Assembly (NCBI RefSeq): GCF_006542275.1
Contig: NZ_CP041217.1
Location: 5,272,501-5,336,500, forward strand
Reading direction: 5' to 3'
DNA length: 64,000 nt
From: Saccharibacillus brassicae
Lineage (GTDB): Bacteria > Bacillota > Bacilli > Paenibacillales > Paenibacillaceae
Shown here: positions 31,134 to 47,056 of the stretch, in pieces
Position numbering within the stretch: the first letter of the stretch is position 1
Layout of the letters: each line of letters begins with the position of its first letter
Program-made: the position numbers and the translations under genes
Notes under the pieces: model-generated
Told to the model about the DNA's origin: nothing
Databases searched by the model: none
What the model saw: the letters and a program-made list of their open reading frames with translations, nothing else

Positions 31134-31161
31134 TAGTGACATATTAATTATTATGTAAACT
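31134..31161 (+). other. dif-like Xer recombination site A
   Basis: 28 bp in the 11+6+11 layout of dif: left arm TAGTGACATAT, centre TAATTA, right arm TTATGTAAACT. The right arm is identical to that of the Bacillus subtilis dif site as I remember it; the left arm is degenerate. It lies between the recombinase start and the ribosome site of the PQQ-repeat gene, so it also overlaps that gene's likely transcription start. Confidence 0.62.
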
Positions 31162-31179
31162 ATGAAAGGAGAACCGCTC

Positions 31180-32442
31180 ATGAATATTTCGCAAAAAGTC
31201 ATTTGGGGACTGCTCGCTTCCGCGCTGCTTATTCCGGGGCAGGCCGTGCCGATCGAGCTCGGCTTGTCTTCCGGCGGCGCCGCATCGACTCCGGTCGGGG
31301 AGCCTAAGCCTTCTGTCCCTTTGGAAACCGGCGATCCCGTCCGGACGCTTCGCCCCGTCTGGACCGCCGCCGTCGATTTCGATGCCGAAGATCCGGAGTC
31401 GTCTTTTGGAGCGCAAACGTCCGAAGGGTTGATTTATTCCGTCTCGCAGGGACGGATACGCGCTGTCGAGGCGTCCAATGGCCGTCTCCGGTGGACGTCC
31501 GCCCACAAGACGATCTGCAATCCGGCGATCGGCAGCGGCATGCTGTCCTATATGGACGAGGCGGGCCGTATTGTGCGGCTGGAAGCTTCGACCGGCAACA
31601 TACTGTCTATCATCAAGGCCGACGGCCTTCCCCCTGCGGGCCGGGTCCGTCTGTCGATCGCAGCCGGTCAAGTGTATGCCGCCGACGCCGAGCACTTCCG
31701 CGTCTATGCAGGGCGGACAGGACGGCTGGTCTGGAAAATCCCCGCCCGACCGGACACCTCGTATCCGAAACTGCAAGGCGTCCATAACGGCGTGGCGATC
31801 GTGTCCGTCGAGACGAGCGGCGCAATTCTGGCGACCCGATACGAAGGGTACGATGTCGCCTCCGGTCGGCGTGTGTGGGAATTGATCGGCAGTCATGGCG
31901 ATCTGCTCGCTGTTCGCAAAGGGCATTTCTATGCCCGCAGCCTCCTGCCGGGTACCGAACGGTACGACGGTTCCGCCGTCATCGACCAAGTGGATATTCG
32001 CAGCGGCAAACTATTGTCTTCGCTGGAATACCGTTCCGCTGCGATCTCAACGCCCGCGATCGCGGGTCAGATACTGATCGGGAACGATCGGCTGTATGCG
32101 ATCGTCTCCGGCCTCTCCGGCCCGGGTCAGCCGACAGGTCAAGGCGCGATCGGCCGTTTCGAGTTGGGGCAGCCCGAAACGCCGGTTCCGCTTCTCGAAT
32201 ACGGGAACGGCCGATCGCCTGTCAGGCTGGACCTGATCGGTTCCCAAGCCTATGCGGCGCAGGCGAACGGGAACGTCTACTTGATCGATCTTCGGTCTTC
32301 CCGTACCTTAGGCGTTGTCGAGACCAGCAGCTCCACGTTCGGGCCGGTGCTGTCGGCAGGCGGGATGACCCTCATCCAGGCGGAAGGGAAACTGATCGCG
32401 GTCGAACGCCCTGAAATGAACGGGTATGTTTCACAAAATTAA
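31180..32442 (+). CDS. Exported PQQ-like beta-propeller protein
   Basis: 420 residues with a Sec signal peptide (hydrophobic 9-22, likely cleavage near GQAVP). The mature part shows repeated blades of the PQQ/outer-membrane-assembly-factor type: LIYSVSQGRIRAVEASNGRLRW, YAADAEHFRVYAGRTGRLVWKI, VASGRRVWEL, YLIDLRSSRTLG. PQQ binding itself is not implied; such propellers usually bind partners or ligands outside the cell. AAAGGAG precedes ATG 31180; an ATG at 31162 lies before the ribosome site and inside the edge of site A, and is rejected. Confidence 0.75.
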   Translation: MNISQKVIWGLLASALLIPGQAVPIELGLSSGGAASTPVGEPKPSVPLETGDPVRTLRPVWTAAVDFDAEDPESSFGAQTSEGLIYSVSQGRIRAVEASNGRLRWTSAHKTICNPAIGSGMLSYMDEAGRIVRLEASTGNILSIIKADGLPPAGRVRLSIAAGQVYAADAEHFRVYAGRTGRLVWKIPARPDTSYPKLQGVHNGVAIVSVETSGAILATRYEGYDVASGRRVWELIGSHGDLLAVRKGHFYARSLLPGTERYDGSAVIDQVDIRSGKLLSSLEYRSAAISTPAIAGQILIGNDRLYAIVSGLSGPGQPTGQGAIGRFELGQPETPVPLLEYGNGRSPVRLDLIGSQAYAAQANGNVYLIDLRSSRTLGVVETSSSTFGPVLSAGGMTLIQAEGKLIAVERPEMNGYVSQN

Positions 32443-32577
32443 ATTTTGTGGTATATAGTCGAAGTGGGCCTCACCCGGAATACATAGCGATCGCCCACCT
32501 GTTACGGGATATGAGTTTTCCTAAGTTTCTCCCAATTTGCGAAGGTGCCAAACGGTACCGAAAGGAGCCCGATTTCC

Positions 32578-33525
32578 ATGACCGATGCCAAAAAGCCCGT
32601 GCTTGAACCTGCCGCTCAGCAGTTTGCCGACGACAACGCGAAGCCTCCTTTCTTGTCCGACCTCGGACCGGAAAAAGGCCGTGAGACCGTAGACGAAGTG
32701 CAAGCCGGCGACGTGTACAAACCGGATGTCGAGCTTGAAGACAAAAGCATTCCCGGCGGTCCAAAAGGCGAGGTGTCGATCCGCGTCCTGCGTCCGAAAG
32801 GCTCGACCGGCCCGCTTCCCGTGCTGCTCTATATCCACGGAGCCGGTTGGGTGTTCGGCAACGCGCATACGCATGACCGCTTGATCCGCGAACTTGCGGT
32901 CGGCGCGGAAGTGGCGGTCGTCTTCCCGAATTACAGCCTGTCCCCGGAAAATAAATACCCGGTCGCGATCGAAGAGATCTACGCGGTGCTGGAATGGATC
33001 TCCGCGCAGGGAGAAGCCGAAGGCTTCGACACGTCGAAGCTGTACGTGGGCGGCGACAGCGTCGGCGGCAACATGACCGCGGCGATCACGCTGATGACCA
33101 AAGAACGCGGCGGCCCGGCGATTGCCAAGCAGCTGCTGTTCTATCCGGTCACGGACGCTTCGTTCGAGACGGAATCGTACAACCAGTTCGCGGAAGGCTA
33201 CTTCCTGATGAAGGACGGCATGAAATGGTTCTGGGATCAGTACACGACCGATCCGGACGAACGCAACCAGATCACGGCCTCCCCGCTGCGCGCCACGACC
33301 GAGCAGCTGCAAGGTCTGCCGGAAGCGCTTGTCATTACCGGCGAAGCCGACGTGCTGCGCGACGAAGGCGAAGCGTACGCCAACAAGCTGCGCGAAGCCG
33401 GCGTTCCGGTCACGGCCGCCCGCTTCCAGGGCATCATCCACGACTTCGTGATGCTGAACACGCTCGCGGAGACGAATGCCAAGAAGGGCGCCATGCTGCT
33501 GGCGAACGCCTGGTTGAAAGGCTGA
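32578..33525 (+). CDS. Alpha/beta hydrolase, acetyl-esterase (HSL/GDXG) type
   Basis: 315 residues. The oxyanion-hole motif appears as YIHGAGWVFG (a variant of HGGG), the nucleophile elbow is GGDSVGGN, and the C-terminal acid and histidine fit RDEGEAYANKL and GIIHDF. These are hormone-sensitive-lipase-like esterases that act on small acyl esters. GAAAGGAG precedes ATG 32578. The 135-bp upstream region contains GTGGGC/GCCCAC and GGTGCC/GGTACC inverted repeats of unclear meaning. Confidence 0.82.
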   Translation: MTDAKKPVLEPAAQQFADDNAKPPFLSDLGPEKGRETVDEVQAGDVYKPDVELEDKSIPGGPKGEVSIRVLRPKGSTGPLPVLLYIHGAGWVFGNAHTHDRLIRELAVGAEVAVVFPNYSLSPENKYPVAIEEIYAVLEWISAQGEAEGFDTSKLYVGGDSVGGNMTAAITLMTKERGGPAIAKQLLFYPVTDASFETESYNQFAEGYFLMKDGMKWFWDQYTTDPDERNQITASPLRATTEQLQGLPEALVITGEADVLRDEGEAYANKLREAGVPVTAARFQGIIHDFVMLNTLAETNAKKGAMLLANAWLKG

Positions 33526-33548
33526 TCCTTTCTCGCCTATACACAGTA

Positions 33549-33580
33549 AAAAGAGCCGCTCGATCAGAGCGGCTCTTTTA
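33549..33580. terminator. Bidirectional terminator
   Basis: AAAAGAGCCGCT pairs with AGCGGCTCTTTT around CGATCAG, between the esterase (+) and the DUF4179 anti-sigma gene (-). Confidence 0.8.
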
Positions 33581-33588
33581 TTTGCGTT

Positions 33589-35037
33589 TTACTCTGATGC
33601 AGCGGGGATCGCTTTTGGGCGCCCCGGTATGGCTTTGTCCCATTCGAGCGGAATTTCGACAGATTCAAACTTCGGCTGTTTCGAAGTTGTGGCCGCAAAC
33701 CCGGTGAGTTCGTCCGGGTCCATCGGTGGGAAGATTGCTTCGAATAAAAGCTCGTTTTTGGATATACGCTGCGGATTGTAATAAGCGACGTAGTCGCCAT
33801 CCGTTTTTGAAGAATTGAAATATGGAAACCATGTCTGTACGTTGAGATCGCTGTATTTCAATTGTACAACCGTTCGTTCCTTCTGGAAATCGATATTCGT
33901 CAGCGTCATCGTTTCTCCGTCGAAGCCGGTCAGTGTGATCGGTGTTTTACCTTCAAAAGGCTGGGTAGCGGTGCCTGTATTCGTATCGTCCATCGTTTGG
34001 GATTCGAAGATATGAAGTTTGAGCGAAGAAGGCTTGGGATTGGTAGGTACAAAAGGATCAAGCACCTCCACCCATTGTACGCTTCCTTCTTCAAAATCGT
34101 CTCCCGTCATCCACTGCTGATAGAAACGGGTATCGACATCGTCGTAATACATAATACCTTTCGTGGAAATCTGGCCCGTAGCTTTCTGAGCCATCCGAAT
34201 CAGGTTGAAAGTCGGGCCGGAGGAAACCTCGGTCAAAGTAAATGCATTTCCTTCATAAGTGAAAGAGGTTCCCGGATAAAAGGTTGAAGTCAGCTTATCC
34301 GTTTTGGCCGAAGATAGAGGGATCTTGGCTTCCCACTTTCCGTTTTTCGTAGCAAGCCGGCTGACTTTCAGGTCTACGCTGAGGGCTGTCGGCCCGTTAT
34401 ATGATTTAAACATGTAGGTAAGGGTACCTGCGAATCGATGACTGCCCAAAAAGGTCTTCGAACGGGTAGAACTCTGATCCCATTCTTTGCCGTCCGCAGA
34501 AGTCTTCAATTTATAGTCGAATGAAGCATTTTTCTCGTTCAAGTCCGCACCGCCGCTTTGATCGTCGACCACATAATCGATCATGACCCGACCACCATCA
34601 TAGTATGCTTTAACCAGTGTCAGCGTGACGTCCTGATCTTTCAATACGATATTCAACGGAGTCGACAGTTTTTCGATTTGTTCATCTACCACGCGTCTAC
34701 CCGTAGTCGGTGCATAAATATCGCGCAGTTCCCGGAATTTTATGTCCGACACGTCTGAAACGGCAGGCATCGGCTTGGAGGAGTCGAGCAGCCGAATACC
34801 GAAGATGGCTGCCGCCGCAAGCAGCAGAACCGCGACAACCGCAAACACTCTCCTGAATCGACTGCCTGATCCGGATTCTTTGACTTGTCTCATTTGTTTA
34901 AGTTCTCCTTCCCAGACGGACTCAAACGAGAGATCAGTTGTTAGGTTCGCAATCGTTCCGGAACCTTCATGCTTCAAACGCTGCGCCAGTTCCTGTTTCT
35001 GAATATCGTGTTCGACCGTTCTGTTGTCGCGGATCAT
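33589..35037 (-). CDS. DUF4179-type membrane anti-sigma factor
   Basis: 482 residues: cytoplasmic N-terminus of about 70 residues, one transmembrane helix (about 73-93: VFAVVAVLLLAAAAIFGIRLL), then an extracytoplasmic region of about 390 residues with a DUF4179 domain and a beta-rich C-terminal domain. It overlaps the preceding ECF sigma gene by 4 nt (ATGA), with GGAGG before the ATG at 35037. This is the standard layout of a sigma/anti-sigma pair in Paenibacillus. The longer open frame running into the sigma gene is spurious. Confidence 0.75.
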   Translation of the reverse strand: MIRDNRTVEHDIQKQELAQRLKHEGSGTIANLTTDLSFESVWEGELKQMRQVKESGSGSRFRRVFAVVAVLLLAAAAIFGIRLLDSSKPMPAVSDVSDIKFRELRDIYAPTTGRRVVDEQIEKLSTPLNIVLKDQDVTLTLVKAYYDGGRVMIDYVVDDQSGGADLNEKNASFDYKLKTSADGKEWDQSSTRSKTFLGSHRFAGTLTYMFKSYNGPTALSVDLKVSRLATKNGKWEAKIPLSSAKTDKLTSTFYPGTSFTYEGNAFTLTEVSSGPTFNLIRMAQKATGQISTKGIMYYDDVDTRFYQQWMTGDDFEEGSVQWVEVLDPFVPTNPKPSSLKLHIFESQTMDDTNTGTATQPFEGKTPITLTGFDGETMTLTNIDFQKERTVVQLKYSDLNVQTWFPYFNSSKTDGDYVAYYNPQRISKNELLFEAIFPPMDPDELTGFAATTSKQPKFESVEIPLEWDKAIPGRPKAIPAASE

Positions 35038-35591
35038 CGCAGTTCCTCCTTGCTCTTGACATAGCCGGGCATACCATAATCCAGCAGATCCGGGTTTACT
35101 CTCAACTTCGCAAGTCCTGCCGCCAGTCTCGATTTGCACGTGCCGAGCGGGATGTCGAGCGTCTCCGCGGCTTCCTTGAGCGGAATTTCCGCATAATAAT
35201 GCAGCAGAATCACTTCGCGGCTCTTGCGCGGCAGTCGGCCGACGGCATGCCACAGTTCCAGCTGCCGTTCGTTCAGCAGCGCGACCGCTTCGGCTGTCCG
35301 TTCCGCCGCTCGGTCCGGTACCTGCCCGAACAACGTCTGCCATTTCAATTTGCGGTAATGGCTGCGCGCCAGGTTCACGGAAATACGCGCCAGCCAGGGC
35401 CGAACCGCTGCGTCGTCTGCCGCTTCGCCGCGATACTGATCGTATTTGCGGAAAGCGCGGATAAACGTCTCCTGGGTCAGATCGTCCGCGAGCGCTTTGG
35501 ATTTGGTCAGCGCCAGCAAAATGCCGAATACCGCTTTCGAATGCCGCTCGAACAGCCGCCTGGCCTCTTCCGAGCTTAACGCCTCGTTCAT
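35034..35591 (-). CDS. ECF-type RNA polymerase sigma factor
   Basis: 185 residues. Region 2 includes ALADDLTQETFIRAFRKYDQYRG (about 33-55) and region 4 is PLKEAAETLDIPLGTCKSRLAAGLAKLR (about 140-167). The start is ATG 35591, preceded by AAAAGGAGGGG. It is coupled to the DUF4179 gene. The upstream region holds dif-like site B about 85 bp before the start. Second ECF pair in this window; its sequence differs clearly from that at 9168. Confidence 0.85.
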   Translation of the reverse strand: MNEALSSEEARRLFERHSKAVFGILLALTKSKALADDLTQETFIRAFRKYDQYRGEAADDAAVRPWLARISVNLARSHYRKLKWQTLFGQVPDRAAERTAEAVALLNERQLELWHAVGRLPRKSREVILLHYYAEIPLKEAAETLDIPLGTCKSRLAAGLAKLRVNPDLLDYGMPGYVKSKEELR

Positions 35592-35676
35592 AGTGTCCCC
35601 TCCTTTTGTCTGACCCGTATACGCTTTGAATCGGGATCGAGTTCGCTTTTTCAAAAAAATGATTTTGCGAGCCGTT

Positions 35677-35704
35677 AGTTTACCGTAATATTATTATGTA
35701 ACTA
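35677..35704 (-). other. dif-like Xer recombination site B (inverted)
   Basis: Read on the minus strand: left arm TAGTTACATAA, centre TAATAT, right arm TACGGTAAACT. The left arm has the CATAA end shared with the other sites; the right arm keeps GTAAACT but has three changes. Orientation is opposite to sites A, C, D and E. It lies upstream of the ECF sigma gene. Confidence 0.5.
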
Positions 35705-35711
35705 AAATTCA

Positions 35712-35747
35712 AAAAGTCCGCTGTCCGATTACCGGAAGCAGACTTTT
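35712..35747 (-). terminator. Terminator after the 2H phosphoesterase gene
   Basis: On the minus strand AAAAGTC-T-GCT pairs with AGC-G-GACTTTT, followed by TTTTTG. Confidence 0.6.
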
Positions 35748-35772
35748 CGCGTTCAACGTCATGGACCCGAAC

Positions 35773-35886
35773 TCACCCGAACGTTACGAAACCCATAGCC
35801 TTTTTGGCCGCCAGCAGCGTTTGACCTGCCTCTTCCGCCGCCCGCCGGGCTCCGCGTTTCAATATTTCCAACGTTCCGTTTACGTC
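35773..35886 (-). pseudogene. Remnant of a tRNA-synthetase C-terminus (TrpRS-like)
   Basis: A 37-codon open stretch without start encodes ILKRGARRAAEEAGQTLLAA followed by KKAMGFV. This is very like the last helix of tryptophanyl-tRNA synthetases (LxxGAxxARxxAxxTLxxVxxxMGF). It directly follows, and overlaps by a few bases in another frame, the end of the 2H phosphoesterase gene. The body of the synthetase is missing, so this looks like the scar of a deletion or insertion. Recognition is by eye only. Confidence 0.45.
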
Positions 35887-36545
35887 TTACTTCTCGTTCG
35901 CAGATCCGTATCATAATGCAGCATATCATTGAAAATAGCAAAAACCGGCTCCGTCATTTCGAATACAATCTCTTCGCGTCGGAGAAAATCCGTATATTCG
36001 CCGCTTATCCGCTGTGCGGTCGCTTCCTGCTGCGCGTCAAGTGCGGCAAGCCGATACGAAAAGGTCAGATGAAACGAATAATGATCGTGATCTTCGTGTC
36101 GAAGGCCCGCTGCCTGCGCCAACTGCTCGCGGTAAAGCGCGATACGCCGCGCATCGGACTCGGCAGCCGGTTCCAGCCGGATATTGCAATCTTCGCAGGC
36201 GTAAGCGCGCATCATGATCGGCCCCGGCTGGGTCGTCCGCTCGAAGGCCGATTGCAAATAGCGATCGACTTCGGCAAAAGAGGCATCCGGCGGCAAAAGC
36301 GCGGGCCACCTGGGCGTACCGCGATCAATCTCGCGGCAGAGTTTCAATACGGTCACGTGAAACGATTCATAGGGCAAAAAAGCATAACAGTTTGCAAGGC
36401 CGGAAGAGCGGAATCGTTGGCTCACTTCTTTGGCCAGCCGATATACGGCAAACCGGTCTTCGCGAATGAAGCTAATGACCGTATTGCCCGGATAAGGCTT
36501 GGCTTGCCCGTCGGGATCGAACTTGAGGCTTGTTTCGTGTGGCAT
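35880..36545 (-). CDS. DUF1868 / 2H phosphoesterase-like protein
   Basis: 221 residues with two HxT motifs, H63-x-T65 in SFHVTVL and H159-x-T161 in SFHLTFSY, the hallmark of the 2H phosphoesterase fold (2'-5' RNA ligase and cyclic phosphodiesterase relatives). Length and the start (GNTVISFI) suit the DUF1868 branch. It probably opens cyclic or 2'-5' phosphodiester bonds; the substrate is unknown. AGGAGG lies 9 nt before ATG 36545. Confidence 0.75.
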   Translation of the reverse strand: MPHETSLKFDPDGQAKPYPGNTVISFIREDRFAVYRLAKEVSQRFRSSGLANCYAFLPYESFHVTVLKLCREIDRGTPRWPALLPPDASFAEVDRYLQSAFERTTQPGPIMMRAYACEDCNIRLEPAAESDARRIALYREQLAQAAGLRHEDHDHYSFHLTFSYRLAALDAQQEATAQRISGEYTDFLRREEIVFEMTEPVFAIFNDMLHYDTDLRTRSKT

Positions 36546-36586
36546 GCATACATCCTCCTCGCTCCGGAAAAAGTTTCGGATTGTTA

Positions 36587-38275
36587 CTAACGCTGCTGCC
36601 GATATACAAACAAAATGGCCGCGGTCGATACGAGCATGATCAGCACCGAATAGACAAAGCTTAACATTTGCGCTTGAGGGTCCGCTTCAGGAGAAGTGGC
36701 TGCATGCAGCACGACGCCCAGCGGCTGATAGAACGGATGGAATAAAAAGACGGACAGATCGTATTCGGCCAGCAACCCGATAAAGTTCAGCAGAAACACG
36801 GACAGCACAAGCGGAAGCAAAATCGGGAACAGCACTTTCCAGTACAGACTCCACGCCGAAGCTCCCAGATTTTTGGCGGCTTCTTCCAGCGTTCCGTCCA
36901 TACCGGCGTAAGCGGCTTTGATCATGCGCAGCGTGAACGGGGTCACCAGAATCAGGTAGCCGATGCCCAATAGATACACCGTTCCCGTCAACACCGTACC
37001 GCCGACGAGCGGATTGGAACGATTGAAAGTCATGAGCAGCCCGAGCGCGATCAGCGTAGACGGCAGAAACCACGGGATTTGCAGCGCAAATTCGATGCCT
37101 TCCGTCCAGCGATTGCTCTGCTTCGTAATCAACCTCCCGATCCACAGCATGAGCAGCACGATAACCAAACTCGCGGCGGCCGCATACCCGATACTGGTGA
37201 ACAGAGGCTGAATGCCCGCTACCGATTCGAACACGGCTTGGTAATGGTCCAGCGAAAAATGGCTCGGGTCGAACACTCCGGCGTACAGGTCGGTTACCGG
37301 CATAAAAGAGAAGCCGATCACGGCGAGCAGCGGCGCGATTTGAACGACAGCGATCAGATGCGCGGCGACCGTAACCGCGATACGCACCCGCGGAGAACGA
37401 ATCGTTTGTTTGACCAGATTCGTTTTCACTTTGGATACGGACAAGTACTGCCCCTTTTTTTCGATCCGAATCGAAATGAGCAAAGCGACCACGGTGATGC
37501 AGCCGAGAAAAATAGCGAGTACGGCCGCATAATTCCGGGTCGTTAACGTCTGCGAAAACGAATAAATCAATGTGTTGATCGTCTCGAAGTGCGGCCCTCC
37601 CAAAATCTGCGGGGTAGCCAGCGCGGAAATGCCGCCAATAAAAGCGATGATCGAGGCCGCCAACAAAGCCGGCTTCAGACACGGCAGCACGATTTTCGTC
37701 AATACTTTCAATTTGCCTGCTCCGATATTGCGCGCCGCTTCGATCGTCTGGTTGTCGATCGAACGGAGCGAATTGCGTACAAACAAAATATAGGTAGAAG
37801 TGCCGGCAAAAGTCAACTCGATCAACACTGCCCAAAAACCTTGAAACCAGGAGGTCGGCAGCCCCGGAACGAGCGCCGTGACAAATCCTTTGCTGCCGTA
37901 CAAAAAGTTGTAAGCCATGACAAGCACCATTCCGTTGCAAATAAGCGGGGAATGATAAGCGATCGCCAACCAGCGGCTGCCTTTGATATGGAAATAGTCC
38001 AGCACCAGAATTTGAAACAAACCGAGTACGGCTACCGTAACCGTCAGGCTGCCGCCCAGCAGAAGCGAGTTGCCCAGACTGCCCATCGCGCGGTCGGAAG
38101 CCACAATATTCAGGATCGGCTTCGGATCGAACAGCCCTTGAGGCATCATCGTCGTATGGATCAACGATAAATTCGGATAGACGAGAAAGGTGAAGATCGC
38201 CCAGAGAAGGCCGAGACTTAGACCGATCGGCACGATCGCTCGCTGCGGCCGATAACGAATCGACTTCTTGTTCAT
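36587..38275 (-). CDS. ABC importer permease, two fused transmembrane domains (Fe3+/AEP type)
   Basis: 562 residues with about twelve helices: two BPD_transp_1 units in one chain. The EAA-type ATPase-docking loops are TIEAARNIGAGKLKVLTKIVLPCLKPAL in the first half and TLEEAAKNLGASAWSLYWKVLFPILLP in the second. Fused permeases of this kind serve ferric iron, 2-aminoethylphosphonate or related anion importers. It overlaps the ATPase gene by 4 nt and is last in the operon PP2C-like, receptor, ATPase, permease. Confidence 0.86.
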   Translation of the reverse strand: MNKKSIRYRPQRAIVPIGLSLGLLWAIFTFLVYPNLSLIHTTMMPQGLFDPKPILNIVASDRAMGSLGNSLLLGGSLTVTVAVLGLFQILVLDYFHIKGSRWLAIAYHSPLICNGMVLVMAYNFLYGSKGFVTALVPGLPTSWFQGFWAVLIELTFAGTSTYILFVRNSLRSIDNQTIEAARNIGAGKLKVLTKIVLPCLKPALLAASIIAFIGGISALATPQILGGPHFETINTLIYSFSQTLTTRNYAAVLAIFLGCITVVALLISIRIEKKGQYLSVSKVKTNLVKQTIRSPRVRIAVTVAAHLIAVVQIAPLLAVIGFSFMPVTDLYAGVFDPSHFSLDHYQAVFESVAGIQPLFTSIGYAAAASLVIVLLMLWIGRLITKQSNRWTEGIEFALQIPWFLPSTLIALGLLMTFNRSNPLVGGTVLTGTVYLLGIGYLILVTPFTLRMIKAAYAGMDGTLEEAAKNLGASAWSLYWKVLFPILLPLVLSVFLLNFIGLLAEYDLSVFLFHPFYQPLGVVLHAATSPEADPQAQMLSFVYSVLIMLVSTAAILFVYRQQR

Positions 38276-40464: not shown

Positions 40465-41277
40465 TCAAATTTGGAATTTGACGTACGTTCGATCGTCGAA
40501 GCTTCCGGCCTGCGCGGTTCTGCCTTTGGTGGAACGATACTGTTTGTAGCACAGCGGATCTTCCCGAAGCTGCTTTTGCAAACGATCTTCGGTCTGTTCA
40601 AGGGTGGATTCGAGCCAGGGATAACCGTCGCTGGCCAACACGATCTCGTGCGGTTCTTCGTCCAACTGGAAAATACGCAGCAGGCGCTCCGGAACCGGTT
40701 CTCCGTTCAGCACGGCATACCCGTAATCCGGGATATTGCGATTGGCGAACCGGCACGCTTGCTGAATCCACGGCAAGATAAAGGATCGGCCCTCGTCTTC
40801 GCCAGTCGGCGGGTCGTTCGGGTCGTTTGATCGAGACTCGTGCAGCGTCAGGATCAGACTGCGCATTTCGGACAACACGCTGTCGCTTTTTTTGGGATTT
40901 TCATGATGCCGACCGTCAATCAGAAGCTGGCAATCTCCGATCAACCAGATTTGTCGGTAATGACGGGAATAAACAGCGGCGACCGCTTGAAATTGTTGTT
41001 CGTAAGGACGAAGAGGAGACAGCGAACGCCATTTTTCCAGAAAATCCTCGTTCACCGCATCCACGAATTGATAGACGGTCGTTTGAGGCGGCAGCTGTTT
41101 AATCCGCTGGCGCACCATTTCCATCGCAAGTCGGCCTGACGTTTTTTCGTCGTAACGCATCGGTATTTTGCTCGTTACGCCATCGACCACAGCGATAAAA
41201 TGATCGGTGACGACCAGGGCATCTTCGTTGGCTTCTTTTTGATTTTTGCTCACGCTGGTGTGTTGGATAATGTGGAT
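40465..41277 (-). CDS. PP2C-like protein phosphatase family protein in the ABC operon
   Basis: About 270 residues. Metal-binding aspartates of a PP2C fold are visible in NEDALVVTDHFIAVVDGVTS, in IGDCQLL and in IVLASDGYPW, and SFDDRTYV is at the C-terminus. No canonical start lies near the AAGGAG at 41290-41285; it is followed by ATC ATC CAC ATT ATC. The likely initiator is ATC at 41277 (7-nt spacing) or 41280, by analogy with relatives that begin close to IIQHTS. The in-frame ATG at 41358 lies upstream of a -10-like TACAAT and is unlikely. First gene of the transporter operon. Role unknown: signalling phosphatase or enzyme on the transported compound. Confidence 0.66.
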   Translation of the reverse strand: MHIIQHTSVSKNQKEANEDALVVTDHFIAVVDGVTSKIPMRYDEKTSGRLAMEMVRQRIKQLPPQTTVYQFVDAVNEDFLEKWRSLSPLRPYEQQFQAVAAVYSRHYRQIWLIGDCQLLIDGRHHENPKKSDSVLSEMRSLILTLHESRSNDPNDPPTGEDEGRSFILPWIQQACRFANRNIPDYGYAVLNGEPVPERLLRIFQLDEEPHEIVLASDGYPWLESTLEQTEDRLQKQLREDPLCYKQYRSTKGRTAQAGSFDDRTYVKFQI

Positions 41278-41496
41278 GATAGGGCTCCTTTCCGGTCGCG
41301 GCCTGTTTGGTTTTGCCTCTGTATTGTAGCTCCGCCGCTTCGCGAAGGGCATGTTCAAACCTCTTCGAAAGATTGCAATTCGTCTTTTGGACGCGGCGGA
41401 GTCGAATTCATCAAAAAATGACGTTTGCCTTCATCGCAATTTACGTATAACAGGTATAGTTGGGAGTGCCACGAAACGATAAAGACGGAGGAGGTC

Positions 41497-42387
41497 ATGA
41501 ACCTGAAGATGATCCCTACTGCGTATGCCAAGAAGCCGAGCATGGAACAACGCGACTATCAGATTCATTACAATCGCGATACCGCGCTCACCCCGTTGAA
41601 AAGCCGGTTAAAAAGCCACGTTCATCCGCATTACGAACTGTATTTTCTAATATCCGGCCAGGTGAATTACCATGTGGACCCACACCGGTTTGCGCTGAAA
41701 TCTGGAGATATGATCTTGATTCGTCCGGGCCAGCCGCATCACGCGGAACTGATTCAGTCGAAAGATCCGTATGAGCGTTATATCTTGTGGCTGCACCCCT
41801 CTTATTTGGAAAATAGCTCGACGGAATCAACCGATTTGCAGATTGCTTTCAAAAGTATTAATTTTCAAGACAGCCATTTGAGCCTGAGCGGCGATATGAT
41901 CGTGCTGCTGGACAATTTGCTGCATCGGATCTGGGTCCAATCGCAGTTGCAGGAGTACGGAGCCGACCTGCTGGCCCGCATTTACATCAAAGAACTGCTC
42001 ATCATAGTAGCCCGCGCCAAGTTGAACGATCCACCCTGCGAACGATCCAAGCCTTTGAACAATGAGAAATTGCTCGCCGAGACGCTGGACTATATCCATG
42101 CACATATTCACGAAGCGATGACGGTTGAGCATATTGCGAATCATTTGTTTGTCAGCCGGTCGTTTTTATCGAAAATGTTTACCGCAAACATGAACATCTC
42201 GCTGCATAAATATATCGTCCAAAAAAAGATGAGCTTTGCCAAACAGGAACTGCTGTCCGGGGAGTCCATTCATCTCATTTGCGAAAAATTCGGCTTCGGG
42301 GATTACAGCACCTTCTATCGGGCTTTTCAACGCGAGTTCGGCATGTCGCCGCGGCTGTACGTGCAAAGTATGAAGGATGTCCGGTAA
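41497..42387 (+). CDS. AraC-family regulator with N-terminal cupin
   Basis: 296 residues. The N-terminal cupin-like sensor (HVHPHYELYFLISGQVNYHVD, then DMILIRPGQPHHAELI) precedes two helix-turn-helix motifs (MTVEHIANHLFVSRSFLSKMFTANM and IHLICEKFGFGDYSTFYRAFQREFGMSP). GGAGGAGG precedes ATG 41497. It is divergent from the PP2C/ABC operon over about 220 bp and is very probably its regulator, with the ligand bound by the cupin. Confidence 0.86.
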   Translation: MNLKMIPTAYAKKPSMEQRDYQIHYNRDTALTPLKSRLKSHVHPHYELYFLISGQVNYHVDPHRFALKSGDMILIRPGQPHHAELIQSKDPYERYILWLHPSYLENSSTESTDLQIAFKSINFQDSHLSLSGDMIVLLDNLLHRIWVQSQLQEYGADLLARIYIKELLIIVARAKLNDPPCERSKPLNNEKLLAETLDYIHAHIHEAMTVEHIANHLFVSRSFLSKMFTANMNISLHKYIVQKKMSFAKQELLSGESIHLICEKFGFGDYSTFYRAFQREFGMSPRLYVQSMKDVR

Positions 42388-42439
42388 GACGGAATTCGTA
42401 TCGGAGTTTCCCGCCAGAATGTCTTCAGAAAAAAATGTG

Positions 42440-42467
42440 AAGTTTCATAATTATTATTATGTAAACT
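42440..42467 (+). other. dif-like Xer recombination site C
   Basis: 28 bp: left arm AAGTTTCATAA, centre TTATTA, right arm TTATGTAAACT. The best dif match of the five. It lies 53 bp after the AraC stop codon, in a place where no promoter is needed. Confidence 0.66.
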
Positions 42468-42609
42468 ACAAATCAGAGAAGCGCTGCGCTATTCGAGGCG
42501 GTTTTGGAGGAGGTCATTTTAAAGGGTTAAACTAGAAATTCGCTCATTAAAACCCTTCGATTAAGGTGGGAAAGGAGCCGGATTCCGATAAACTAATCGA
42601 TTTAAAAGG

Positions 42610-42645
42610 AAACAGCGTATAATTTATATTATACGCTGTTTTTTT
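42610..42645 (+). terminator. Perfect AT-rich terminator inside the cassette
   Basis: AAACAGCGTATAAT pairs perfectly with ATTATACGCTGTTT around a TTAT loop, followed by a T-run on the plus strand. The only plus-strand sequence before it and after site C is about 140 bp without a start codon. It would therefore end either AraC read-through or a small RNA. Confidence 0.78.
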
Positions 42646-42661
42646 AATACTTAAAAAGCTT

Positions 42662-42907
42662 CTAAATTGCAGATCGAAGGATCTTTATTCCCTCCTCGAA
42701 AACGGCTTTTAAACCCGCCAATTCGGCATCGGTCCAGCTTGAAGTGAACCGTTCCCCGTCTTTTCTCAAGCTTGGAGGATTGGTTCCGTAGAAAAGGCGG
42801 TCGTAAATGTATGAATTCTTTGCGTGATTTTCGCAAAAATTAACTCCGATCGAATAAGCGACATCGCCCATGATGTTCCAGAAATCGAGAAACTCGTTAC
42901 AGTCCAC
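42662..42907 (-). CDS. Small unknown cassette protein (81 aa)
   Basis: 81 residues, GTG start at 42907 with a weak AGGA upstream. Acidic, aromatic-rich (several Tyr, Phe, Trp) and helical, without signal peptide. Base composition is clearly lower in GC than in neighbouring genes, a sign of separate origin. A -10-like TATAAT for this gene falls within dif-like site D. Not recognised; small proteins in mobile cassettes are often immunity or toxin/antitoxin components, but nothing here proves that. Confidence 0.5.
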   Translation of the reverse strand: MDCNEFLDFWNIMGDVAYSIGVNFCENHAKNSYIYDRLFYGTNPPSLRKDGERFTSSWTDAELAGLKAVFEEGIKILRSAI

Positions 42908-42933
42908 GTATCCTGTCTTATGAATTCATTCTT

Positions 42934-42961
42934 CATGTACATAATTATAGTTATGTAAACT
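42934..42961 (+). other. dif-like Xer recombination site D
   Basis: 28 bp: left arm CATGTACATAA, centre TTATAG, right arm TTATGTAAACT. The two arms are near-perfect inverted repeats over TACATAA / TTATGTA. Same orientation as A, C and E. It lies 27 bp upstream of the 81-aa gene. Confidence 0.64.
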
Positions 42962-43177
42962 ATAATTATTCCTTGAAGGCCAAAAATAAAATTACGATAA
43001 ATTTAAAGCCGGTCTCCGATATGCGGAATAACGAATAAAGCGGATCTCTGTATTCTTGCATTTGCCTCCCCCGCTTCGTTCATTACGTACAGATATGCAC
43101 AAAAAAGACGAAGAGCCGCAGCTCTCCGCCTTCTCTATTCTTCTTTTCCGTGCCTCTAACCCTGTCCGAACCCCGGC

Positions 43178-44044
43178 TCAGTACCGATCCAGAATCGTAT
43201 TCGTCTTGAGCGAATCGGCCGGAATCAACCAGCCTTCCGCATTCAGCTCGTCCATCAGCTCGGCCCGGTTGGCGGCAGCTGCCGAATAATCGTCCGTTTT
43301 AAAAGAAATCTCGATCAGCGGCTCGGTACCGGTGCCGGAAGCGTTCAACAGCGGCAGCACTTCGATATCGATCTCGACTCCGTTGAACTCGCCGGCATAC
43401 TTGGTCACTTCGATCGGACCGTGTACGCGGGATTTTTTGAGCGTGTCTTTGCCCCAACCGTTCGAACGCGTCTTCTCCAGCTTGCCCGGGATTTCTTTGA
43501 CGAGCAGTTCCAGCGCTTTGCTGGCGGAAGGCAGGATCAGGCCGGTGGAGGCTTTGACCTTCTTCGTATTGGAGAAGCCCAGCGTCTGTTTGCCGTAACC
43601 CCAATCGACTTCGGCTTCGTAATTCGTGTCGGAAGAATCGAATCCTGCGGCGTTTGCAGCGCTCAGGGCGGCGTCGATCTGTCCGTTTTGCACCGCGAAG
43701 CGCTTTTTGTACGTCAGTTCGTAGTCGCTTTTGTCTTCTTTTTTACGAAAACGCACGTTCCAGCCTTCGCCGTTCAAGTCCTGGGCATTCGTGTCGAAGT
43801 ATTCCACCAGTTGGCGCTTGGGCGCGGACGTAATCTCAAAAGCCGCGTTGACCGAAGCTTGCAGCGATCCGTTTGCGTTCAGCACGTCGCTTGAATCGAG
43901 CAGGAATTTTACTTCGTAAGTCGGTGTCGCGTTCGAAGCGGCATGCGCCTGCGGCGCGGCACCCCAGCTCGTGAAGAGAACGGCGGCGCTCAAAGCGGTA
44001 ACGGTGAGCTTTTTGGTGAATGCGTTTGGACTTTTCGTGTTCAT
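43178..44044 (-). CDS. Exported CYTH-like domain protein
   Basis: 288 residues with a clear Sec signal peptide (about 1-35, cleavage near AHA-AS). The mature protein begins with YEVKFLLDSSD and continues with LVEYFDTNAQDLNGEGWNVRFRKKEDKSDYELTYKKR, the strand pattern of a CYTH/triphosphate-tunnel fold (acidic/basic tunnel residues ExK and RxRxK). It ends with an acidic strand EIDIEVLPLL and FEISFK-type strand LIEISFKTDDY. CYTH enzymes act on triphosphates or polyphosphate and are normally intracellular, so export is unusual. AAGGAG lies about 13 nt before ATG 44044. Confidence 0.68.
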   Translation of the reverse strand: MNTKSPNAFTKKLTVTALSAAVLFTSWGAAPQAHAASNATPTYEVKFLLDSSDVLNANGSLQASVNAAFEITSAPKRQLVEYFDTNAQDLNGEGWNVRFRKKEDKSDYELTYKKRFAVQNGQIDAALSAANAAGFDSSDTNYEAEVDWGYGKQTLGFSNTKKVKASTGLILPSASKALELLVKEIPGKLEKTRSNGWGKDTLKKSRVHGPIEVTKYAGEFNGVEIDIEVLPLLNASGTGTEPLIEISFKTDDYSAAAANRAELMDELNAEGWLIPADSLKTNTILDRY

Positions 44045-44184
44045 TGCGGTTGATCCACTCCTTCGAAGGTTGGGGTTGATTACCTTCTCACTTTAAAGGG
44101 GCAGGATCAGGGCGAAATGAACGCGAACGCGGATTCTGGTAAAAAATGGCCATACTTTGCTGATGGAACCCAAGATTTTATCGA

Positions 44185-45084
44185 TTAAGGCTTCAAAAAT
44201 CCGGGTTCCAAATAACTCGGATTCGGATACGTATAGAACCCTTCTCCGGTCGCTTTGCCGAGTTTGCCCTGATCGACGTAGTCGTTCTTGAGCAGGTCCG
44301 CGACGGCCTGATACGCTTCGTCGCCGGTATGCTCCGCACGGGTGCGGGCGATATGGTAGGCGGTGTTGATGCCGACGATATCGAGCATGCCGAACGGGCC
44401 GACAGGAGCACCGGTCGCGACCATCCACGTTTTGTCGATCGTCTCGATATCGGCGATGCCGGTCACGAGCAGCTTTTGCGCCGAACTGAGCAGCGGAACG
44501 AGCAGCGAGTTCACGATGTAACCGGCTTGTTCTTTTTGCAGAGGAAGGGCGACCATGCCGATCTGTTTGGCGAACGCGACGACGTCATTGAAGACGTGCT
44601 CGTCGGTTGTCGCATGCTTCATGATCTCGGCGGTGTTGTTTTTCCAGATCTCGTTGGCAAAATGCAGCGCCAAAAATTGCTCCGGACGGCCGGTGGCGTG
44701 CGCAAATTGGCTCGGCAGCAGCGTCGACGAATTGGTCGCGAAGATCGTATGCGCCGGAGCGGCCAGAGCCAATTTTTGATAGAAGTCGATTTTGATCTCG
44801 AGCGATTCCGGCACCGATTCGATGACCAGATCGGCGTTCGCCGCCGCCAGAGCAAGGTCGCTTTGGAACGTGAACCTTGCCATCGCCGCTTCCAACGCTT
44901 CGTTGGTTGCGCCCAGATCCGCTTGATAGAGAGGCTTGAGCTGTTCAATCCGTTCTTTGGCCCGGTTCAGTGCTTCGTCGTTAATATCGTAGACCGTAAC
45001 CGCAAACCCGTGAAAAGCGGTCTGAAAAGCGATTTGACTGCCCAACACGCCGCTGCCGGCGATCAAAATATTCGTATATTCCAT
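44185..45084 (-). CDS. 3-hydroxyacyl-CoA dehydrogenase (3-hydroxybutyryl-CoA type)
   Basis: 299 residues. NAD motif GSGVLGSQIA (10-19), acidic residue after beta-2 (VYDIND), catalytic region TNSSTLLPSQFAHATGRPEQFLALHFANE with the active-site histidine in ALHFAN, and a C-terminal helical dimerisation domain. It oxidises 3-hydroxyacyl-CoA (or reduces acetoacetyl-CoA) in fatty-acid or butyrate metabolism. It stands alone without other beta-oxidation genes. ACAGGAG precedes ATG 45084; a good promoter with a palindrome lies upstream. Confidence 0.84.
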   Translation of the reverse strand: MEYTNILIAGSGVLGSQIAFQTAFHGFAVTVYDINDEALNRAKERIEQLKPLYQADLGATNEALEAAMARFTFQSDLALAAANADLVIESVPESLEIKIDFYQKLALAAPAHTIFATNSSTLLPSQFAHATGRPEQFLALHFANEIWKNNTAEIMKHATTDEHVFNDVVAFAKQIGMVALPLQKEQAGYIVNSLLVPLLSSAQKLLVTGIADIETIDKTWMVATGAPVGPFGMLDIVGINTAYHIARTRAEHTGDEAYQAVADLLKNDYVDQGKLGKATGEGFYTYPNPSYLEPGFLKP

Positions 45085-45128
45085 TAGTCAAACATCTCCT
45101 GTATTTTAAAATGAACGCGTCCTATAAA

Positions 45129-45172
45129 AGTTGATCACAACTATATTGTATCCTACTTTTATATAAAGTCAA
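45129..45172 (-). promoter_or_regulatory. Promoter of the hydroxyacyl-CoA dehydrogenase gene with operator-like palindrome
   Basis: Minus strand: -35 TTGACT (45172-45167), 16-nt spacer, -10 TACAAT (45150-45145). Directly downstream is the perfect palindrome AGTTG-ATCA-CAACT (45129-45142), positioned over the start site as a repressor (TetR- or MarR-type) would need. No regulator gene is adjacent. Confidence 0.6.
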
Positions 45173-45202
45173 CTTCAAAGTTTCAGAACGACATTTTAAT
45201 GT

Positions 45203-46171
45203 TCAGTCAGTCTGATCCAGTACCAACCCGGCACTATATTTCGCCCACTTGGCGAACTTGCCGGTCTGCTCCGGCGCGCAGTCGATCGCCCACCGCACCG
45301 TATCGAACGAACGCAGCAGCATAAGCTCCCGGGCTTCGCTGAGCTGTTCGGGCGAGAGTCCGTACCCTTCCGCAAACGCGCCGAACTGCGCCGCATCCGG
45401 GGTTCCGTCGCGAAACTGCGTCAGCATGAGCTGGATCACGTCACCATGAGGGACCGGATATACTTCCGCGCCGCCCCAATCGAGCAGCGAGATGGCGCCG
45501 TCCTCTTCGCCTTCTGCCTGTTCTTCTGGGTCTACCAGCACGTTTTTGGCCGACAAATCGCCGTGAATCAAGCCGAAGCGGAACGTTTGCGCGGCCAATT
45601 TTTCGAAAATCGCTTTGGCCTGCTTCGACTGCGTCTTCGTGATCACGCCAAGACCAAGCAGCGGGTCCGACTCGGTCAAGCTGTCGATATTGTACCGGAT
45701 ATAACCGTGCCAACTGCCGTCCGAACCCGGATGCGGCGGATTCAAGAAGAGGCCGTGCGCGGGATCGCTCAGCTCTCCTCCGTATCCCTGCACCGGAATC
45801 TCATGAATGACGCGCGCGTATTCGCCGAGCCGCCGCCAGATTCGGATGTCCGCACCGGCCGTCTCCAATCCGTTCTCGCCTTCGACGAAAGATTGAAGCA
45901 TATACGCCTGTCCGTCTTCGATCCCGATTGCAAGCACCCGGGGACCCGGAATGCCGGCTGCGGCCGCCTGTTCGAGACACCATTTTTCTTTGGCGTATTC
46001 CGTATAAGAATCGGCCTGATTCAGACGAACGATTGCTTTGCGCCGCTCGGTGTCGACCCGGTAGACCTGATTGACGAAGCCCAGGCCGACGATAAGCGCA
46101 GCGGAAACGATTTTTTCGTCGTAAAAACGGCTGACAATCTTGGCGGCCAGCTGCTGTAGCTCTGCGGGCAT
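45203..46171 (-). CDS. Aminoglycoside phosphotransferase-family kinase
   Basis: 322 residues with a kinase-like fold: nucleotide-binding N-lobe (FVNQVYRVDT, then KAIVRL), Brenner motif FGLIHGDLSAKNVLV with the catalytic aspartate in HGDL, and metal-binding D in ISLLDWGGAE. The family covers antibiotic kinases but also choline, homoserine and other small-molecule kinases; resistance is not implied. GAGGAGG precedes ATG 46171. It is divergent from the membrane protein gene at 46270. Confidence 0.8.
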   Translation of the reverse strand: MPAELQQLAAKIVSRFYDEKIVSAALIVGLGFVNQVYRVDTERRKAIVRLNQADSYTEYAKEKWCLEQAAAAGIPGPRVLAIGIEDGQAYMLQSFVEGENGLETAGADIRIWRRLGEYARVIHEIPVQGYGGELSDPAHGLFLNPPHPGSDGSWHGYIRYNIDSLTESDPLLGLGVITKTQSKQAKAIFEKLAAQTFRFGLIHGDLSAKNVLVDPEEQAEGEEDGAISLLDWGGAEVYPVPHGDVIQLMLTQFRDGTPDAAQFGAFAEGYGLSPEQLSEARELMLLRSFDTVRWAIDCAPEQTGKFAKWAKYSAGLVLDQTD

Positions 46172-46269
46172 GGCGTTCCCCTCCTCCTCTGTTTGAGATC
46201 AAGAACTTGTCGTTAATAATAGAAAGTCTGCGCTTCTCGTGCAAAATGTTCAGAAAGGTGGAATTTATC

Positions 46270-47031
46270 GTGAAATACTCCGATTCCGGGACCTCTTCTT
46301 CCGCGTTCGGCGCGGTTTCGAGGAACTTCCTGCAGCGACACAAACGCCGCATCGCGATCATTCTTTCTATTTTGGGACTGGTCGCCCTGATCGTTGTGAT
46401 CCATCATTTTAACTCGAAAGGGTTCGATTTGGACGGCAGCCGGTACACTTCGCAATCCGTACAGGGCGATACGGCCTTTTATCAAGCCCGTTTCAAGCCT
46501 CCGATTGAAGTCCGCCGCGATTCGTCGGGCCGGGAGATCCGGATCAAGGACCAGACGTACCGAATCACGGAGGGAACCTATTCGGGTTCGGAAGCAGGCG
46601 TGGATCTTGTGTACACGGTGGCTTATCCGAACGGCAGCAGCCGGCAGGCCGCCGTATGGAACGGTTTTCTCGTGAATCTCGACGGCCGCGGCGAACCGAT
46701 CATCATGACGGTATCGGCTTCTTCAACCGACAAGCCGTCCGACGCGAACGGCCGCTCCGCCTATACGGCCGCCCAGCTCGTTGCGGCCGCTTACCCGCAG
46801 TTCCATGAGAAGCCCGGCAATCCGGCGATTTTCGTCGCGCTGCTGCTGTTGGCGGCTTTCGGCGGGTGCTTGTCGCGCTACCGACGGTTTCAGGACTTCC
46901 TGTTCAAGCTGCGCGGCAGCGGACTCTGGGTCCGTGATCCCGAACCGAGCGAGTTTTATTACGCCATGAGCCGCTTCGGCGGGATGGCGATCCTGGTCGG
47001 GGCATTGTTCGCTTCGCTGTTTCAACTTTAG
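46270..47031 (+). CDS. Membrane protein of unknown function, three helices
   Basis: 253 residues: transmembrane helix at about 34-52, an extracytoplasmic domain of about 135 residues (DQTYRITEGTYSGSEAGVDLVYTV), then two helices (about 192-207 and 236-252). The start is GTG 46270 with AAAGGTGG 8 nt upstream; an earlier in-frame ATG has no ribosome site. The TAG stop codon (47029-47031) is itself the first three bases of dif-like site E. Not recognised. Confidence 0.65.
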   Translation: MKYSDSGTSSSAFGAVSRNFLQRHKRRIAIILSILGLVALIVVIHHFNSKGFDLDGSRYTSQSVQGDTAFYQARFKPPIEVRRDSSGREIRIKDQTYRITEGTYSGSEAGVDLVYTVAYPNGSSRQAAVWNGFLVNLDGRGEPIIMTVSASSTDKPSDANGRSAYTAAQLVAAAYPQFHEKPGNPAIFVALLLLAAFGGCLSRYRRFQDFLFKLRGSGLWVRDPEPSEFYYAMSRFGGMAILVGALFASLFQL

Positions 47032-47056
47032 TTCCATAATAATGATTATGTAAAAA
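47029..47056 (+). other. dif-like Xer recombination site E
   Basis: 28 bp: left arm TAGTTCCATAA, centre TAATGA, right arm TTATGTAAAAA (last three bases differ from the other sites). It begins at the stop codon of the membrane protein gene and lies before its terminator, so it cannot be a promoter element of a neighbouring gene. Confidence 0.55.

Follow-up and report, generated by a model that had tools for sequence, protein, structure and literature searches.

A probable array of Xer-shuffled dif modules at the replication terminus of Saccharibacillus brassicae

The window, as we call the whole 64-kb stretch of DNA analysed here, comes from a chromosome of the Saccharibacillus group and covers its replication terminus. 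A gene for a Xer-type tyrosine recombinase (F4) lies there about 213 bp from the first of five dif-like sites, which bound four intervals. The features are given below, with site sequences in the order left arm, centre, right arm.

29576..29938, minus strand: small protein F1, 120 aa, without a Pfam or NCBIfam family
29970..30920, minus strand: Xer-type tyrosine recombinase F4, 316 aa (PF00589, E 2.6e-35)
31134..31161, plus strand: dif-like site 1, TAGTGACATAT TAATTA TTATGTAAACT, with the exact B. subtilis-type right arm; Xer gene on one side, PQQ/BamB-like gene on the other
31162..35676: interval 1, with genes for a PQQ/BamB-like protein, an alpha/beta hydrolase, a DUF4179/DUF5643-like protein (under cut-off) and an ECF sigma factor
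35677..35704, minus strand: dif-like site 2, with the variant right arm TACGGTAAACT; ECF sigma gene on one side, species-specific ABC block on the other
35705..42439: interval 2, with genes for a 2H-phosphodiesterase-like protein, an ABC permease, an ABC ATPase, a solute-binding protein, an unknown protein and an AraC-type regulator
42440..42467, plus strand: dif-like site 3, AAGTTTCATAA TTATTA TTATGTAAACT, following the AraC-type gene
42468..42933: interval 3, 0.47 kb, G+C 0.41, without a called gene and probably a remnant
42934..42961, plus strand: dif-like site 4, CATGTACATAA TTATAG TTATGTAAACT; the 3′ end of the CYTH-like gene is 216 bp away
42962..47028: interval 4, with genes for a CYTH-like protein (under cut-off), a 3-hydroxyacyl-CoA dehydrogenase, an APH-type phosphotransferase and an unknown protein
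47029..47056, plus strand: dif-like site 5, TAGTTCCATAA TAATGA TTATGTAAAAA; bases 1-3 are the stop codon of the ORF at 46270-47031

Each site has the architecture of a dif site, 28 bp with two 11-bp arms that form an imperfect inverted repeat around 6 bp. A search of the window for this 11+6+11 pattern with at most three mismatches returned exactly five sites, the same five, one of them inverted, that the original prediction had picked out. The expectation in the shuffled window is 0.00, and none of 100 shuffles held five or more. Throughout the 5.62-Mb genome, which is a single contig, these are the only matches at that stringency, all inside 16 kb, and a backwards control gave none. The right arm TTATGTAAACT was likewise predicted to recur at least three times, far above chance; it has three copies in the window, all exact, against 0.12 expected with one mismatch allowed, and the two remaining sites do carry close variants of it (TACGGTAAACT and TTATGTAAAAA). 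No further exact copy exists elsewhere in the genome, and for the exact right arm we reject the notion that the canonical dif lies elsewhere and the cluster is a decoy, since all three copies are in the cluster. Matches with at most one mismatch number 33 in the genome, fewer than the control's 57. The identity of this arm with that of B. subtilis dif, as stated in the original prediction, is borne out in print: PMC3025954 gives ACTTCCTAGAATATATATTATGTAAACT for B. subtilis dif and GGTGCGCATAATGTATATTATGTTAAAT for E. coli dif. In window order the sites are oriented +,-,+,+,+, such that intervals 1 and 2 have opposite bounding sites and intervals 3 and 4 like ones, a departure from alternation that would count against modules of the Acinetobacter type, although the orientation of several sites is uncertain because the two arms are so alike. 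A known RNA element or a tRNA attachment site was considered and discarded: Rfam gave no match at gathering score, and no tRNA was found, in the window.

Mapping against the terminus and the GC-skew switch places the array where a dif site should be. The dnaA gene at 2,544,693 puts the antipode at 5,354,427, 35–51 kb from the array, and the switch in skew falls somewhere from 5.22 to 5.2325 Mb, 71–100 kb from the array. In two related genomes the position is looser: the distance from array to antipode is 190–203 kb in G008, and in G011 the array is far from the antipode, yet 23–131 kb beyond the skew switch. As a single dif is expected at the terminus, at least one of the sites is presumably the resident dif.

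Sites of this kind are present in 15 of the 16 genus genomes, and the 15 regions read hold 71 of them, at four to six per cluster. Six further weak profile matches in these regions (scores 14.1–18.4) were removed by hand; at that score the profile has no match in 400 kb of the window's genome away from the array. Information content across the 71 sites is 17.3 bits in the right arm, 11.4 in the left arm and 6.0 in the centre. Chromosomes with more than one site, five here and four to six in every genus region, lead us to speak of an array of dif-type sites and not of 'the dif'. A profile trained on the genus finds 139 sites in 80 F4 loci (116 of them in the 69 loci outside the training genomes; none in shuffles), and the strict pattern occurs in 74 of 118 family genomes, with no control matches. 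Two or more sites are listed for 43 genomes, and in 38 of these they all lie on one contig, with a median span of 14.7 kb.

F4 is a divergent member of the Xer family. Its putative catalytic residues (R155, K179, H254, R257, H280 and Y289) are invariant in the 11 sequences of alignment A1. The best NCBIfam match is XerC at 193.7 bits (cut-off 335), with XerD at 173.7 (cut-off 330), so that F4 is neither a canonical XerC nor a canonical XerD; nor is it XerS (108.8 bits, cut-off 267). The genome also encodes a XerS that passes its cut-off, some 51 kb from the array; its XerD gene is at 246,464 and a XerC-like gene at 1,432,723. None of the 12 family genomes tested has a gene over the XerC cut-off, although only 2 of 14 control genomes do. 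Of 71 loci outside Saccharibacillus, 40 have a site that starts no more than 200 bp beyond the F4 match. The linkage has exceptions. F4 is about 210–230 kb from the array in G002 and G003. In G015, which has no match at three mismatches, a single strict site and F4 are about 240 kb apart, and the F4 locus (L203) has no site. The strict site occurs in 21 of the 32 family genomes that lack F4 (E <= 1e-80), compared with 53 of the 86 that have it; even at 1e-35 no A1 match turns up in 12 genomes that have sites but not F4, which is weak evidence. A role for F4 as the sole or necessary recombinase is thus unsupported, given that some genomes without it still have clusters. These genomes have other genes that match the XerC model weakly, in G026 about 27 kb from the cluster, so another divergent Xer may act there. 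Carriage of F4 on plasmids was also considered and rejected. The best plasmid match, pHD01 (69.8%), holds fumC, bioB, gerQ and xerS together with the lactate dehydrogenase and DUF3900 genes of the chromosomal flank, and its incomplete feature table has no rep gene, so it is apparently a contig from a chromosome terminus that was deposited as a plasmid. Other plasmid relatives are distant (40–48%); among the three examined, a profile match precedes the gene by about 0.4 kb in L299, lies about 8 kb off in L301 and is absent from L300. In phages, all matches are below 60% identity.

The intervals resemble modules of the Acinetobacter type, in that genes are flanked on both sides by dif-like sites and none of the seven PF00589 matches falls inside an interval, F4 being outside, beside site 1. 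The ABC-transporter block of interval 2 has a site at each end and is species-specific: a search of the other 15 genus genomes at 1e-30 gave no match to its permease, and among 71 named loci and 15 viral stretches the genes of this interval matched nothing but ABC ATPases, at about 30%. At site 2, homology to genome G010 stops 16 bp past the site centre in both genomes. The F1 gene stands alone between two sites in some relatives. PADLOC found no defence system among ten proteins; the ABC ATPase gave ATPase-type matches, and one phosphotransferase match was weak. Across the genus, the genes between the sites change from species to species while the sites persist, as the prediction of variable content among relatives had it, at the level of species. 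The variable gene blocks suggest that the terminus serves as a platform for gene swapping.

Comparative tests point in the same direction with unequal force. Gene families unique among ten regions make up 39 of 167 in the arrays and 21 of 238 in the 12-kb flanks (p 1e-4). In the Saccharibacillus clade, adjacency is conserved in 35 of 83 comparisons across site gaps, as against 198 of 253 across other array gaps (permutation p 0.0004), an effect that fades when only long gaps are counted (p 0.024 for at least 60 bp, 0.088 for at least 100 bp and 0.23 for at least 150 bp) and is absent from the five-genome P. dauci group (9/12 versus 31/40). At the nucleotide level, homology is broken in 354 of 453 site comparisons and 2991 of 6675 pseudo-site comparisons among 66 Paenibacillus loci (p 7e-5 per position), where the pseudo-sites were drawn from whole 20-kb loci and the test is therefore partly one of array against flank. 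The same test is borderline in Saccharibacillus (64/74 versus 195/254, p 0.05) and not significant in the P. dauci group (p 0.19). In five P. polymyxa-group loci a shared flank begins at a site: identity over 200 bp to its right is 0.85–0.95 in all 10 pairs, and to its left 0.01–0.19 in six pairs and 0.36–0.64 in four. Furthermore, P. terrae, P. brasilensis and Paenibacillus sp. BJ-4 share a 2.7-kb block that runs from site to site, and block Y of the P. polymyxa group keeps an about constant extent beside different neighbours at 80–92% identity, with no near-identical recent copy found. An alignment of P. terrae with P. maysiensis as a possible 'empty junction' has a left junction that is not clean, the stretch beside the site being unlike. 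Recombination, an excision circle or an empty site within one species was not seen.

We consider it probable that the host Xer system shuffles dif modules in an array at the terminus, and the dif-module interpretation of the original prediction is supported. The five sites would be dif-type Xer recombination sites, at least one of which would serve as the chromosome's dif. Circular or donor DNA with a dif-like site would be joined to the terminus, or lost from it, by the host Xer recombinases, each gain of a module leaving an extra site and each loss removing one. XerD is the likeliest enzyme to act on the conserved arm TTATGTAAACT, and a divergent partner would take the variable left arm; for this lineage the probable partner is the Xer-type recombinase whose gene adjoins the array. 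We infer Xer binding, strand exchange, the identity of the acting Xer and the source of the modules.

A less likely account has one working dif, the other sites being old inert copies that mark past events in a terminus where insertion and recombination, homologous or illegitimate, are tolerated. Variability is general in terminus regions, as this account would expect; it also fits the changed right arm in two sites, the weakening of the adjacency test by the control for gap length, and precise homology ends that are hardly enriched at sites over other gaps (high-identity homology ends within 22 bp of the centre at 25 of 193 sites and 165 of 1545 pseudo-sites). However, four to six sites in each of 15 genus regions, with clusters in many other genera, are unlike decay, and the shared flank that begins at a site in five genomes also speaks against it, as does conservation of 76–100% in the right-arm columns, a figure inflated because the sites were chosen by similarity.

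We regard it as improbable that the array was left behind by autonomous elements (phage or IMEX) that inserted at dif one after another, and not by passive modules. IMEX insertion at dif is known (PMC5357621), each insertion would duplicate the site, and the strict site occurs in 15 IMG/VR contigs, which may have no tie to Paenibacillaceae; but Pfam finds no phage, secretion or mobilisation family among the 14 called interval genes, nor replication, transfer or phage genes such as an IMEX would own, and F4 and F1 have no match in the 15 viral stretches. That the sites are transcription factor operators, for instance of the array's AraC-type regulator, is very improbable and was rejected: they are palindromic and intergenic (none of the 71 centres is inside a called gene) and site 1 is just upstream of a gene, but there are five genome-wide and not hundreds before a coherent regulon, all are terminal, the genes converge in 15 of the 66 gaps that bear a site (in 17 of 114 that bear none), with no promoter to serve, the genes vary between species while the sites stay, the family of the AraC gene is not represented in the other 14 regions, and the arm matches the B. 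subtilis dif arm exactly.

The array of dif modules may have a wider counterpart, which we put forward tentatively and with less than even confidence: across the Paenibacillaceae, the dimer-resolution site could have been turned into an integron-like platform, its dif sites in a fixed array at the terminus, run by XerD with, in many lineages, a dedicated divergent XerC-type recombinase beside it, that acquires, inverts and discards modules while still resolving dimers. If so, a family mostly of soil and plants would use its terminus as a platform for gene exchange, and would resolve dimers amid several competing dif sites instead of one, even though, with extra copies present, each activation of the Xer system at the terminus ought to lead to deletions. 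Survival of the array under dimer resolution, and replacement of XerC by a divergent Xer encoded at the terminus, become testable. Dif modules would also be extended from Acinetobacter and its relatives to Gram-positives and to ordinary metabolic and transport genes.

We found no account of a terminal dif array with a linked Xer in Paenibacillaceae in the literature searched, which yielded nothing relevant on Paenibacillus or Saccharibacillus dif arrays and had most subscription journals outside its reach. To that extent the original prediction's statement that no chromosomal counterpart is described in Paenibacillaceae holds. Outside the family, PMC12907356 and PMC6449649 describe dif modules in Acinetobacter on chromosomes as well as plasmids, including the chromosomal dif module island of strain M10. 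Among known systems, IMEX likewise place foreign DNA between dif-like sites at the terminus, in their case as one element, whereas the array has several short intervals and lacks the families noted above. XerS/difSL and XerH/difH share the linkage of a Xer gene to a presumed site at the terminus (PMC2731167), but here the dif architecture is classical and F4 is not XerS. B. subtilis dif, acted on by CodV/RipX, has the same 28-bp plan, an identical right arm and the same terminus position, as a single site in place of four to six and with a different left arm (consensus TATTTACATAA here, ACTTCCTAGAA there). The dif and pdif modules of Acinetobacter, as portrayed in those papers, are alike in that genes without a recombinase of their own are bounded by 28-bp Xer sites, and modules stand in a row with sites common to neighbours and content that varies between strains. 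There, extra chromosomal sites are usually distant from dif1 and look like the pdif sites of plasmids, and orientations in the islands alternate; the sites described here do not seem to alternate strictly, and they cluster, in a Gram-positive family, at the replication terminus, in many cases with a dedicated Xer gene next to them.

We find that the five dif-like sites originally predicted in the window are precisely those returned, against none expected, by a search with the pattern TAGTTNCATAA-N6-TTATGTAAACT at up to three mismatches. Extended to the whole genome, as had been proposed, the count (one contig, 5,619,468 bp, with the window at 5,272,501-5,336,500) remains five, all in the cluster, with no control matches. 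The exact right arm has three copies genome-wide, every one inside the cluster; with up to one mismatch it gives 33 genome matches, below the 57 of a backwards control. The right arm is, as had been noted, identical to that printed for B. subtilis dif, ACTTCCTAGAATATATATTATGTAAACT, and the inner left arm carries the CATAA of the printed E. coli dif, GGTGCGCATAATGTATATTATGTTAAAT (PMC3025954). Information content is 17.3 bits in the right arm, 11.4 bits in the left arm and 6.0 bits in the centre. In a second site class, one arm deviates from TTATGTAAACT at inner bases (e.g. TACGGTAAACT). Such sites occur in 9 of 10 Saccharibacillus-clade regions, mostly one per region.

Class-2 sites in the window and in genus genomes (G numbers), and other features
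Window 35677-35704, minus strand: class-2 site
G001 1091375: class-2 site
G004 1069757: class-2 site
G005 641589: class-2 site
G007 239315: class-2 site
G010 232331: class-2 site
G011 3930964: class-2 site
G012 428402: class-2 site
G013 320647: class-2 site
Window 29970-30920, minus strand: tyrosine recombinase F4, 316 aa, about 213 bp from site 1
Window 29576-29938: small protein F1
Genome 246,464: XerD, over the XerD cut-off
Genome 1,432,723: XerC-like gene, under its cut-off
G000:C1:5370706-5371668 (own genome, beyond the window, terminus region): XerS, over cut-off, about 51 kb past the array

Family F59, which we take from its sequence to be tryptophanyl-tRNA synthetase-like, adjoins a site in the arrays of six genomes (G001, G003, G005, G007, G011, G012), and that site is class-2 in five of the six.

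Mapped against the replication terminus and the GC-skew switch, the array lies at the terminus, 71-100 kb beyond the switch. With dnaA at 2,544,693 the antipode falls at 5,354,427, which places the array (5,303,634-5,319,556) 35-51 kb from it. In 20-kb samples, negative skew extends to 2.54 Mb and positive skew covers 2.8 to 5.22 Mb; the switch falls between 5.22 and 5.2325 Mb, beyond which skew is negative, or about zero at 5.2645-5.2805 Mb. The arrays of G002 and G008 are 29-39 kb and 190-203 kb off their antipodes. That of G011 (3.928-3.951 Mb) is 1.6 Mb off, a distance on which a possible assembly error in the scaffold bears; it is nevertheless near the skew switch (between 3.82 and 3.905 Mb), which argues that the array tracks the switch rather than geometry.

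The pattern, at up to three mismatches, is found in 15 of 16 genus genomes, with 41 matches (two sites being counted on both strands) against 6 in the control; two matches beyond clusters, in G005 and G012, are probably chance. The remaining genome, G015, carries a single strict site, which lies about 240 kb away from F4. A profile trained on 35 of the sites from the 15 genus regions scores 77 sites there at 14 or more, 71 of which were kept (4-6 per genome) after six weak ones were dropped by hand; it gives no such hit in 400 kb of the S. brassicae genome away from the array. In 80 named F4 loci the profile picks up 139 sites, of which 116 fall in the 69 loci from genomes not used for training; shuffles give none. 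Across the family, the strict pattern occurs in 74 of 118 genomes with no control hits, and among the sites listed, 38 of the 43 genomes with at least two have them confined to a single contig (median span 14.7 kb, largest 204 kb).

Variation of the intervals among relatives, the expectation from dif modules, was confirmed in a comparison across species: blocks between the flanks are present, absent or reordered, and sites separate many of them. For 15 regions, genes were called with a caller of our own and clustered into families by blastp. The left flank of most Saccharibacillus regions closes with F9-F1-F4, and the right flank opens with F10, often followed by F18-F3-F34. Two anchors, the sigma factor gene F50 and the CYTH-like F35, are common to the window, G010 and G004, enclosing respectively the ABC/AraC block, F387-F83-F79-F95-F94-F93, and F97 with F0, with sites at both ends of this content in all three. 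At 1e-30, none of the other 15 genus genomes yields a match to the ABC permease encoded in the window's block. When the ten Saccharibacillus-clade regions are compared with one another, rather than with whole genomes, families confined to a single region account for 39/167 array genes vs 21/238 in the 12-kb flanks (p 1e-4). In the same clade, adjacency is kept in 35/83 comparisons across site gaps vs 198/253 across other array gaps (permutation p 0.0004). The effect fades with longer gaps (p 0.024, 0.088 and 0.23 at minimum gaps of 60, 100 and 150 bp), so that avoidance of operons by the sites explains part of it; in the five-genome P. dauci group adjacency is alike (9/12 comparisons across site gaps vs 31/40 across others). 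The F1 family (114-122 aa, without a known family) stands alone between two sites in the arrays of G002, G003, G008 and G009, and in 71 loci five of eight F1 matches (L193, L200, L202, L218, L225; 42-48% identity) have a site 66-98 bp before them.

At the nucleotide level, homology in 66 Paenibacillus loci is broken in 354/453 informative site comparisons vs 2991/6675 at pseudo-sites (0.68 vs 0.50 per position, p 7e-5), pseudo-sites being drawn from whole loci, which makes this partly a comparison of array with flank. Breaks number 64/74 vs 195/254 in Saccharibacillus (p 0.05) and 7/10 vs 9/15 in the P. dauci group (p 0.19). High-identity homology ending within 22 bp of the centre is not clearly enriched (25/193 sites vs 165/1545 pseudo-sites); for 35 of the 38 homology ends that fall at sites, homology in the partner also ends at a site. 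The P. polymyxa group provides the plainest example: five loci have a common right flank (0.85-0.95 identity) that begins at a site; over 200 bp on the opposite side identity is 0.01-0.19 in six of ten pairs and 0.36-0.64 in four, with 0.11 for random sequence. Writing a bar for each site, P. terrae PIC167 has the order Xer|X|Y|Z|flank, and the order in P. maysiensis is Xer|Y|W|flank; at single-base resolution the left junction of this pair is not clean. Block Y (2.7 kb) spans site to site in three species.

In 12 of 15 genus genomes the array is no more than about 6 kb from F4; the distance is 11 kb in G006 and about 210-230 kb in G002 and G003. Of 71 loci outside Saccharibacillus, 40 have a site that starts within 200 bp past the F4 match. 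Its presumed catalytic residues are invariant in an alignment of 11 sequences. It scores 194 bits with the XerC model (cut-off 335) and 174 bits with the XerD model (cut-off 330), and its best relatives with solved structures are XerA, a XerC-like protein and XerD. No match above the XerC cut-off was found in 12 family genomes tested; a canonical XerC may be missing from the family, though just 2 of 14 control genomes pass. In three of six F4-bearing genomes (G052, G116, G061), XerC-model matches at 1e-50 comprise one XerD-like gene and F4 only, which suggests that F4 may be the XerC-type partner. A role for F4 as the necessary enzyme is disfavoured by strict sites in 21/32 family genomes without it (E <= 1e-80), vs 53/86 with it. 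Twelve site-bearing genomes of the former kind have no match to the F4 alignment at 1e-35, in a search run without a positive control; in one of these, G026, a different weak XerC-model gene lies about 27 kb away from the site cluster. The 115-kb 'plasmid' record pHD01 (NZ_CP013204.1; L302-L304) has xerS, F4, fumC, bioB and gerQ together with three dif-like sites, and its feature table shows no rep gene; its content resembles that of a contig from the chromosomal terminus filed as a plasmid.

This analysis shows that multiple dif-type sites cluster at the terminus, that a Xer gene is linked to them, and that blocks between sites have been gained, lost and reordered. The modules would be integrated and excised by Xer recombination; XerD would act on the right arm, which is conserved, and a divergent partner would act on the left arm, which is weaker. 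For tyrosine recombinases, strand exchange between unlike centres should be unproductive; we propose that the array may escape deletion during dimer resolution because its centres differ.

Dif modules are carried by Acinetobacter plasmids, and extra dif sites resembling pdif are reported in 19 of 20 Acinetobacter chromosomes, usually one to five and distant from dif1, with 14-15 in two strains (PMC6449649); one strain has a chromosomal island of modules in a row (PMC12907356). A large dif prediction reports unique sites, its text as consulted making no mention of Paenibacillus (PMC3025954), and our literature search found no description of such arrays for Paenibacillaceae. In XerS/difSL and XerH/difH, Xer genes are described as linked to their own sites (PMC2731167). 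Relative to known dif modules, the interest of the present arrays rests on their terminal clustering, the linked Xer gene and their spread across the family.
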